Shown piece after piece: positions 2,979 to 20,156 of a stretch of DNA of 38,701 nucleotides. Source of the DNA: Chitinophagaceae bacterium. GTDB taxonomy: Bacteria > Bacteroidota > Bacteroidia > Chitinophagales > Chitinophagaceae. The stretch lies in the NCBI GenBank assembly GCA_013694745.1, contig JACDBU010000136.1, positions 1 through 38,701 of the forward strand. Reading direction: 5' to 3'. The position numbers and the translations under genes were made by a program. The notes under the pieces were generated by a model that worked only from the letters and a program-made list of their open reading frames with translations, was not told where the DNA came from and made no database searches. Positions within the stretch are counted from its first letter, which is position 1. The number at the start of each line of letters is the position of its first letter.

Positions 2979-3830
2979 TCACTTTACAGGATAGGAGTAA
3001 AATCCTTTACCGGTTTTTCTCCCAAGATCGCCACTTTTTACTTTATCAATTTGTGTTTGAGAAGGTTCAAAACGCTTTATGTTATTAAATGCTTTGTATA
3101 AACTTTGCGACACGGATAAATTTATATCCATACCAATAAGGTCCATCAATTTAAATGGCCCCATTTTAAATCCTGATGCCTCCATGAGCTTATCTATATT
3201 TTCAAATGTGGCCACACCTTCTTCTGATAATTTCATTGCTTCTAAATAATAATGCCGTGCAACCCGGTTAACTATAAAACCCGGTGCATCATTGCATATC
3301 ACCGGTACCTTATTCATTTTTTCACACAGGTTAAACACTTCCTTTAAAACGGATTCACTGGTTTGTTCACCCTTAACCACTTCAACAAGTTTCATTACAG
3401 GTGCCGGATTAAAAAAATGCATTCCAACAACTCTTTCGGGATGTGATACATTTTTTTGTATTGCTGTTACTGGGAGGGAAGAAGTATTGGTAGCAAAAAT
3501 GGTTGACTTGCTGTTTTGTATTGAGAGAAGATTGAAGAGTGCCGTTTTTGCTTCAATTTTTTCAACAATTGCCTCTATGACAACTTCGGCTATACAATTT
3601 TTATTATCGCTTGTAAACAAGATGCTGTTAAAAAAACTTTCTTTTTGTTGTGGTGTGATCTTTTGTTTATCACATAAAAATTGCAGGCTATTGGTAATAT
3701 TAATTTTTGCTTTTTCCAATATGGAGTCATCAAGATCAAACAAAATAGTTTTGAAACCACTTTGCGCTGACACCTGCGCAATGCCGCTCCCCATTGTACC
3801 GGCGCCACAAACACAAATTGTTTTAATCAT
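2979..3830 (-). CDS. hbd: 3-hydroxybutyryl-CoA dehydrogenase
   Basis: The 283-residue protein has the short two-domain architecture of 3-hydroxyacyl-CoA dehydrogenases. GAGTMGSGIAQ at residues 9-19 is the NAD-binding loop. The conserved MHFFNPAPVMKLVE block supplies the catalytic His138-Glu150 dyad, and NDAPGFIVNRV at 180-190 begins the C-terminal helical dimerisation domain. The family oxidises (S)-3-hydroxybutyryl-CoA to acetoacetyl-CoA, or the reverse, in fatty-acid or butyrate metabolism. The length matches stand-alone Hbd/PaaH-type enzymes and excludes the fused FadB/FadJ type. Its start is 15 bases from the pheS stop, consistent with co-transcription. Confidence 0.9.
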   Translation of the reverse strand: MIKTICVCGAGTMGSGIAQVSAQSGFKTILFDLDDSILEKAKINITNSLQFLCDKQKITPQQKESFFNSILFTSDNKNCIAEVVIEAIVEKIEAKTALFNLLSIQNSKSTIFATNTSSLPVTAIQKNVSHPERVVGMHFFNPAPVMKLVEVVKGEQTSESVLKEVFNLCEKMNKVPVICNDAPGFIVNRVARHYYLEAMKLSEEGVATFENIDKLMEASGFKMGPFKLMDLIGMDINLSVSQSLYKAFNNIKRFEPSQTQIDKVKSGDLGRKTGKGFYSYPVK

Positions 3831-18644: not shown

Positions 18645-19220
18645 ATGAAAATCAAAATCTTAATGTTTGCATTCGCTATTATAATAGCAGCAGGCGTAAA
18701 CGCACAAGGTAGACGCATGGCATCCCCGGCAGCACATACAATGCGCGCACATGATAACCGTAATGACAGGAGGGATATACGGAAAGATACGAGAGATGTA
18801 CACCAGGATAAAAAGGATGTATGGAACGATAAAAAAGGTGTTTGGAAGGATACAAAAAACATTAAAAATGATAAAGCAAACCGCCATGGAGATATAAAAG
18901 ATCTGCAAGGGGATAAAAAGGATATACAAACAGACAGGAAAGAATTTGTTCAGGATAAAAAAGAAGGAAATACCGGTGACCTTGCTGGAGATAAAGCAGA
19001 TCTGAAAAGTGATCGCCAGGATATTAAAGGAGATGTAAAAGATATTAAAGGTGATATCAAAGATATTCGCAATGATAAACAGGATCGCAACCAGGATATT
19101 AAAGAAATCAAGGGTGATAAAAAAGATATCATGAAAGATAAAAGAGACAGGAGAAAAGACGTGAAAGATCTAAAGCAAGATAAAAGTCCTGCGCCAGTTG
19201 TTCCGGTTCCTAATCAATAA
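18645..19220 (+). CDS. Secreted Asp/Lys-rich heptad-repeat protein
   Basis: A 191-residue protein with a signal peptide (MKIKILMFAFAIIIAAGVNAQ). Residues 38-107 form ten consecutive heptads, a five-residue insertion GNTGD follows (108-112), and ten more heptads run to 182. The short tail is APVVPVPNQ. Each heptad follows hydrophobic-x-x-D-x-x-D/E/N, for example VHQDKKD, IKGDVKD, LKSDRQD. Asp at position 4 is present in all 20 units. The rest is rich in Lys and Arg, so the protein is highly charged and probably a long helix. No enzymatic domain is present and the family is not recognised. The gene is divergent from the A2M gene and ends at a strong terminator. Confidence 0.8.
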   Translation: MKIKILMFAFAIIIAAGVNAQGRRMASPAAHTMRAHDNRNDRRDIRKDTRDVHQDKKDVWNDKKGVWKDTKNIKNDKANRHGDIKDLQGDKKDIQTDRKEFVQDKKEGNTGDLAGDKADLKSDRQDIKGDVKDIKGDIKDIRNDKQDRNQDIKEIKGDKKDIMKDKRDRRKDVKDLKQDKSPAPVVPVPNQ

Positions 19221-19237
19221 AAAAATAGTGATCAATG

Positions 19238-19267
19238 AAGTGCTCTGAAAAACAGGGCACTTTTTTT
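19238..19267 (+). terminator. Rho-independent terminator after the heptad-repeat gene
   Basis: AAGTGCTCTG, loop AAAAA, CAGGGCACTT followed by a T run. Nine of ten positions are Watson-Crick pairs and the tenth is a T-G wobble. It lies between the convergent heptad-repeat gene and sucD and can serve the plus strand directly; the sucD stop sits in the T run. Confidence 0.85.
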
Positions 19268-20156
19268 ATGCCTTTGAACGCATAACTTCTGCCATTGTTT
19301 TCCCAATATCTGCGGGACTCGCCACAACATGAATTCCACATTCAGCCAGGATTTTCATTTTTGCTGCAGCGGTGTCATCGGCTCCGCCAACAATAGCACC
19401 CGCATGCCCCATACGTCTTCCGGGTGGAGCAGTTTGCCCCGCAATAAATCCTACTACTGGTTTTTTATTTCCACTTTTCTTAATCCAGTTAGCGGCCTCA
19501 GCCTCCATACCACCGCCAATTTCGCCGATCATTACAATGCCATCTGTTTCGGGATCATTCATGAATAATTCTACCGCTTCTTTTGTGGTGGTGCCAATTA
19601 TCGGGTCACCTCCAATCCCAATTGCAGAGGATATTCCCAGGCCTGCCTTGGCTACCTGGTCTGCCGCTTCATAAGTTAATGTTCCCGATTTTGAAACAAT
19701 TCCAATCCGCCCTTTTTTAAAAATAAAGCCGGGCATAATGCCAACTTTACATTCATCCGCTGTTATCACTCCCGGGCAATTTGGACCAATTAAACGGGAG
19801 GGTTTTTCATTTGATGAGGAAAGGAAATTTTTTACCTTAACCATATCCTGCACCGGTATGCCTTCTGTAATACAAACGATCAATGCAATACCAGCATCAG
19901 CGGCTTCCATGATAGCATCAGCTGCAAATGCAGGGGGAACAAATATTATGCTTACATCAGCACCGGTTTTATTTACTGCATTAGCAACAGTATTAAATAC
20001 CGGCTTATTCAAATGCAGTGTGTCACCTTTGTTTGGAGTTACACCTCCAACAACATCGGTTCCATATTCTATCATTTGTGTTGCATGAAAAGTGCCTTCG
20101 GTTCCGGTAAAGCCCTGCACTAATATTTTGGAATGTTTATTTACTAAGACTGACAT
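19266..20156 (-). CDS. sucD: Succinate--CoA ligase (ADP/GDP-forming) subunit alpha
   Basis: The 296-residue protein shows the CoA-binding Rossmann domain ([12 protein letters not shown]) and the segment [10 protein letters not shown]. The ligase domain carries the phospho-His loop [10 protein letters not shown] near residue 250. The [16 protein letters not shown] block is also diagnostic. With SucC it converts succinyl-CoA to succinate with substrate-level phosphorylation in the TCA cycle. sucC is not adjacent, so the subunits are encoded separately. The gene sits 65 bases downstream of the Mla-type ATPase gene and has a TACTTTTG box of its own upstream. Confidence 0.97.

Follow-up and report, generated by a model that had tools for sequence, protein, structure and literature searches.

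Exported, charged heptad proteins of Chitinophagaceae as probable antiparallel two-helix hairpins

A protein in which Asp recurs at every seventh residue through two blocks of heptads raises the question of what structure so highly charged a sequence could adopt. The gene lies in the window (the whole stretch of 38,701 nucleotides from a Chitinophagaceae bacterium that we analyzed), and the initial annotation described its product as exported, with 10+10 heptads. The reading frame was confirmed with its signal peptide, and the heptads flank GNTGD as claimed (Table 1). Position 4, said to be invariant, is Asp in 20/20 heptads; position 1 is mostly I/V/L (I 8, L 4, V 3, R 3, N 1, F 1) and position 7 mostly D/E (D 13, E 3, N 2, G 1, P 1), as described, and the reported Lys/Arg richness is seen as K or R at position 5 in 13/20 and at position 6 in 15/20 heptads.

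The gene and its heptad pattern

The regularity of the Asp residues is far from random. When residues 38-182 were shuffled 20,000 times, ten Asp in a row at spacing 7 never occurred; the longest run was nine, seen twice, and the real protein has two runs of ten. A dN/dS of about 0.1 was found for close homologs (0.060/0.584 and 0.116/1.003), whose changes cluster at third codon positions; purifying selection acts on the gene in these relatives, and it belongs to a real gene family. Heptad-to-heptad identity averages 53%, with 86% for the best pair, and the heptads are not recent copies of one another at the DNA level.

Within the window the gene stands alone. The order of sucD, this gene and the macroglobulin gene is retained in a genome of the same genus (L129). 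The assembly that carries the window is of the metagenome type, 2.75 Mb in size and 86.6% complete. Inspection of the 191-residue sequence found no lipobox Cys and no anchor, and a similar signal peptide opens all homologs. Another contig of the same genome (C166; L030:1483-1785) encodes a second small exported charged protein, LTKNEAKDVREDQKDLRQDVKLAKSDGKITKGERK, which matched weakly (E 1.6e-3) and resembles an EF-hand-like/TerB-like segment more than a relative of the hairpin.

Table 1. Features of the locus, with the three layers of the window protein that hold Arg at d
Feature	Position	Strand	Remarks
Whole gene, 191-aa exported hairpin protein	18645..19220	+	Single copy in assembly
Signal peptide MKIKILMFAFAIIIAAGVNAQ, residues 1-21	18645..18707	+	Read from sequence; without lipobox Cys
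N arm, residues 38-107	18756..18965	+	10 heptads; within predicted helix 28-107
Turn GNTGD, residues 108-112	18966..18980	+	Five-residue phase break
C arm, residues 113-182	18981..19190	+	10 heptads; predicted helix 113-179
C-terminal tail SPAPVVPVPNQ	19191..19217	+	Short, Pro/Val-rich; model confidence low
Arg80 at d	18882..18884	+	Opposite Ile138 at a' (19056-19058), antiparallel pairing
Arg148 at d	19086..19088	+	Opposite Thr70 at a' (18852-18854), antiparallel pairing
Arg169 at d	19149..19151	+	Opposite Thr49 at a' (18789-18791), antiparallel pairing
Intrinsic terminator-like hairpin with T run	19237..19263	+	Between the gene and convergent sucD; z = -3.2
Alpha-2-macroglobulin-family protein, 2049 aa	12306-18455	-	Upstream, divergent
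sucD	19266-20156	-	Downstream, convergent

Heptad frame, arm lengths and covariation between the arms

The initial annotation held that the protein is not a standard a/d coiled coil, a view that rested on taking position 1 as a and position 4 as d. When the frame is shifted so that position 5 is a and position 1 is d, Asp at position 4 falls at g and position 2 at e, which is a legitimate coiled-coil frame. In this frame d is mostly Ile, Leu or Val and sometimes Arg, and a is mostly Lys or Arg but also Thr, Ile or Val. An aliphatic residue is present at position 1 or 5 in 19/20 heptads, giving a core that is thin and half-charged. It had also been reasoned that the pattern would be low-complexity drift if homologs lost either the Asp or the phase. 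Among 280 heptads from 15 long members, position 4 is Asp in 269 and Glu in 9, the heptad phase is kept, and lengths change by whole heptads, the variation in multiples of seven that had been raised.

We segmented the arms with a heptad HMM trained on the family. The N and C arms of the window protein measure 10.1 and 9.9 heptads, and those of other members 9/9.4, 7.1/7.3, 11/11.4, 13.1/13.3 and 14.4/14.9. Arm length varies between about 4 and 15 heptads, but within a protein the N arm matches the C arm (r = 0.95, n = 17). Asymmetry averages 0.05, whereas random placement of the turn gives 0.30, and none of 100,000 random draws reached the observed value. The least equal member, from a betaproteobacterium (L057), has 3.7/6.3 heptads by an uncertain segmentation. 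Equal arms are also seen in a second type of exported heptad protein, with DRREDVR repeats and an NGG turn (r = 0.91, n = 15). Internal duplication of one half, instead of pairing, would have given equal lengths at birth. However, the DNA identity between the arms is 0.50 in register against a mean of 0.54 over shifts, showing no excess over the heptad background, and lengths vary among genera while the arms remain equal. The covariation described next is antiparallel, only 2/39 cases being seen in the parallel register, and we regard duplication as extremely improbable.

For covariation, heptad k of the N arm was paired with heptad n+1-k of the C arm; because the turn fixes the register, this pairing has no free offset. 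In 36/39 cases an Arg at d stood opposite Thr, Asn, His, Ser or Gln at a', and in 26/28 once redundancy was removed; these five residues occupy 43/281 of all a positions. When the pairing was shifted by one to four heptads or made parallel, the share was about 38% at most, at or near that baseline, and none of 20,000 heptad permutations reached 36/39. The rule was first noticed, before testing, in five members (P0001, L002, L070, L005 and L067); the out-of-sample support comes from six other long members and from the separate short GVKHP subfamily, in which it holds in 10/11 cases. Across lineages the rule is seen at about nine different layers; in L078, for example, the Arg residues of C5, C7 and C9 lie opposite the Asn residues of N6, N4 and N2. 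Because the positions differ between lineages, the covariation is not one inherited accident. An exception is C10-N2 of L004. A parallel dimer was considered as a reason for the heptads and dropped.

Taken together, an a/d stripe with g/e flanks, equal arms about a turn and a-d' covariation, three sequence marks of an antiparallel hairpin, are present.

Structural model and alternative readings

AlphaFold2, given a five-sequence alignment, predicted two helices (residues 28-107 and 113-179) with pLDDT above 90 for 108 residues and a pTM of 0.60. AlphaFold2 favors helices for charged repeats and can over-predict them. A Foldseek search with this model returned no match at E <= 0.001, and the best PDB fold matches were antiparallel coiled coils, among them p85 iSH2 (TM 0.64, 2.4-2.9 Å over about 140 residues). 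The hairpin protein resembles p85 iSH2 and the Smc5/6 arms in having a pair of long antiparallel helices with a short turn between them, in fitting the a/d heptad frame and in the superposition of its predicted model (TM 0.64). It differs from both in that there is no sequence relationship, a is mostly Lys or Arg and g is an invariant Asp, and in that the hairpin makes up the whole protein and is exported.

These data argue strongly for an antiparallel hairpin fold. Our best explanation, to which we give a probability of roughly 0.87, is that the protein is exported by Sec, is soluble and folds as an antiparallel two-helix hairpin with a charged core; among the cellular roles considered, we favor that of a periplasmic structural or protective rod. 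With 70 residues per arm and a rise of 1.5 Å, the hairpin would be about 10 nm long. In the usual layer, an aliphatic d of one arm would pack on Lys or Arg at a' of the other, and Arg at d would meet a small or polar a', so that no layer would hold two long basic residues. In an ideal antiparallel Crick model, the Cb distances from Asp at g are 6.4 Å to d' and 8.9 Å to a', so each Asp could clamp a core Arg or Lys; in this model, the invariant Asp most likely forms a salt bridge with a basic core residue of the opposite arm. Positions 4 and 7 carry a charge of -36 and positions 2 and 6 one of +25. Because g faces g', one edge would carry the Asp stripes of both arms (4 and 7) and the opposite edge their Lys/Arg stripes (2 and 6), and we infer a rod with one acidic and one basic edge. 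Some points speak against the hairpin: Lys at a lies beside Lys at e, an arrangement that is less than ideal, and like charges meet in the g-g' and e-e' contacts.

The single charged helix that the initial annotation proposed corresponds to a stable single alpha-helix (SAH), a charged rod whose arms stand alone and in which the GNTGD break is incidental. The highly charged, heptad-periodic, Lys/Arg/Asp-rich composition would suit it, and SAH (ER/K) domains likewise combine a charge-rich helical sequence with few hydrophobics. One account (PMC5347031) describes SAHs as rich in Arg, Glu and Lys and as stabilized by salt bridges. In the window protein the i/i+4 pairs are the reverse, 29 like-charged and 6 opposite (22/22 when shuffled). 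As far as the sequence tells, neither an excess of opposite-charge i/i+4 pairs nor a partnerless monomeric helix was found; Asp takes the place of Glu, an aliphatic d stripe is present, and the arms are paired, being equal and covarying at one antiparallel register. Because of the excess of like-charged pairs a lone helix would be strained; such pairs within one arm make up stripes and argue against a stand-alone helix. We therefore consider an SAH very unlikely. The observation made in the initial annotation is confirmed, whereas its interpretation was right in part and mostly wrong; the role in envelope spacing that it suggested is possible, although the protein has no anchor.

A disordered protectant of the hydrophilin/LEA kind, folding only upon drying or binding, would share the hydrophilic, Lys/Asp-rich and repetitive character of the hairpin protein, its very high charge, few hydrophobics, export and variable length, and the helices from AlphaFold2 may be over-predicted. 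Hydrophilins are defined by a Gly content above 6% together with high hydrophilicity, and Gly makes up 10/170 (5.9%) of the mature hairpin protein. Group 3 LEA proteins, which one report (PMC12871917) defines by 11-mer repeats, differ from the hairpin protein, which has a period of 7, a fixed turn and inter-arm covariation; its Asp autocorrelation is 27 at lag 7 and 12 at lag 11, the latter being as expected for Asp at positions 4 and 7 of heptads. Moreover, covariation between the arms calls for selection on a hairpin that is folded, at least when the protein is at work. We consider such a protectant unlikely, and a conditional hairpin possible. About as doubtful is the reading in which the Asp stripes would bind Ca2+ or Mg2+ and so close or assemble the hairpin. 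Both Asp stripes would lie on one edge of the hairpin model, with 36 acidic residues at positions 4 and 7, but the modelled Asp-Asp Cb distance across the seam between the arms is 9.2 Å, and searches of Pfam and NCBIfam matched no known metal-binding family. Given the distances in the Crick model, salt bridging to Arg or Lys is the simpler reading.

Spread of the family and a recurring neighbor

At E <= 0.001, a search with the single protein matched 25/200 Chitinophagaceae genomes, not all of the matches being genuine. With an alignment, 91/399 genomes and 45/104 genera of Chitinophagaceae matched at 1e-5; the genus count takes in short-hairpin types, and the weaker matches include some unrelated heptad proteins. 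Across the phylum, 24/396 genomes matched at 1e-6, some weaker matches again being unrelated heptad proteins. Named records with relatives come from Sphingobacteriales/Chitinophagales MAGs and one Betaproteobacteria MAG. Scanning genome contigs gave no confirmed relative with the single protein and four with the alignment, and the plasmid and phage collections searched gave no match. No Pfam or NCBIfam family scored above its curated cut-off, weak coiled-coil matches falling far below it. The relatives share the layout of signal peptide, N arm, turn and C arm, with GNSTD, GNTAE, GNKEE, GDKAE or KDYKD as the equivalent of the turn. The hairpin proteins are a real, undescribed family that is common in Chitinophagaceae.

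Several candidates were rejected. Matches to Huntingtin-interacting protein, SMC, Rad50 and CENP-F reflect generic coiled-coil similarity; four others are frames in repetitive DNA without a signal peptide (L014, L121, L158, L163), and three are unrelated (L021, L052, L149). Eight more are membrane proteins with IEDIQED heptads (L039, L041, L045-L047, L049, L051, L053), in which acidic IEDIQEDIEEISED heptads follow two transmembrane segments, and these are unrelated to the hairpin family.

Two other kinds of exported heptad protein were observed in Bacteroidota. Short exported hairpins with 3-4 heptads per arm and a five-residue turn G[DN]K.. are widespread in Chitinophagaceae (L010, L012, L016, L017, L019, L020, L077, L081, L086-L088, L090, L093, L094, L106) and carry a conserved C-terminal tail, G[VI]KHPxxRAxxQIHR. 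Those of the GVKHPxxRA type (L077, L086) are like the hairpin protein in signal peptide, heptads, central Gly turn and matched arms, and differ in the extra conserved basic tail. The second kind has (DRREDVR)n repeats (L023, L035, L040, L050, L091-L099, L103, L105, L107, L112-L114, L118, L122, L123). Its members with an NGG turn (L092, L095, L097) show the same four likenesses but have the hydrophobic residue at position 5 and not at position 1. With its central NGG/DGG turn, the (DRREDVR)n family is probably a charged hairpin that either arose by convergence or is a distant relative.

A gene for a predicted outer-membrane beta-barrel of about 300 residues, with a signal peptide, a C-terminal Phe and weak Pfam matches, adjoins long hairpin genes in ten cases (G041, G133, G582, G166, G719, G769, G752, G675, G636, L056), usually directly downstream on the same strand. 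It also adjoins short hairpin genes in G046 and G633 (both of the window's genus) and in G058, G182 and G014, and a hairpin gene adjoins 9/30 of the best barrel loci, which were picked regardless of hairpins. The barrel gene was not adjacent to the hairpin gene in the window, G770, G005, G603 or G070, and a search of the window's assembly (86.6% complete) gave no match to it. The predicted structure of the barrel candidate was poor (pLDDT 31), so the barrel fold rests on the signal peptide, the C-terminal Phe and a weak Gcw_chp match. This uncharacterized barrel-like family has a SYLSNDVYFGRKDS motif and a C-terminal F (L125:4509-5435, L126, L128, L130, L131, L132, L133, L056:2108-3010); it was found in 59/104 genera searched, with weak matches to Gcw_chp and DUF5686. 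At the betaproteobacterial locus (L057:3989-4351), a barrel-like ORF lies upstream (2979-3815) and, by eye, a FecR-like ORF further downstream.

These data are suggestive of an outer-membrane link of the hairpin family. The link is weak for the window's own protein, for which an outer-membrane role is least supported because its own genome gave no barrel match. As to function, we tentatively favor a rod in the periplasm, structural or protective, that would act at the outer membrane and, in species having one, together with the neighboring predicted beta-barrel protein. A general protectant seems somewhat less probable, and cation buffering is unlikely as a role. A rather unlikely idea is that the rods lie side by side, the acidic edge of one stacked on the basic edge of the next, and so build ribbons or a mesh in the periplasm, docked on the outer-membrane beta-barrel; arm length would then set the ribbon width, and selection would match the arms heptad by heptad.

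What looked like a low-complexity repeat protein thus appears to belong to a naturally occurring series of antiparallel coiled coils that differ in length, each arm having about 4 to 15 heptads, and that follow a pairing rule which can be read from the sequence: where d is Arg it lies opposite Thr or Asn at a', otherwise an aliphatic d lies opposite Lys or Arg at a'. Such a series would serve coiled-coil design, and the recurring barrel neighborhood offers a testable entry to an undescribed envelope component of Bacteroidota.
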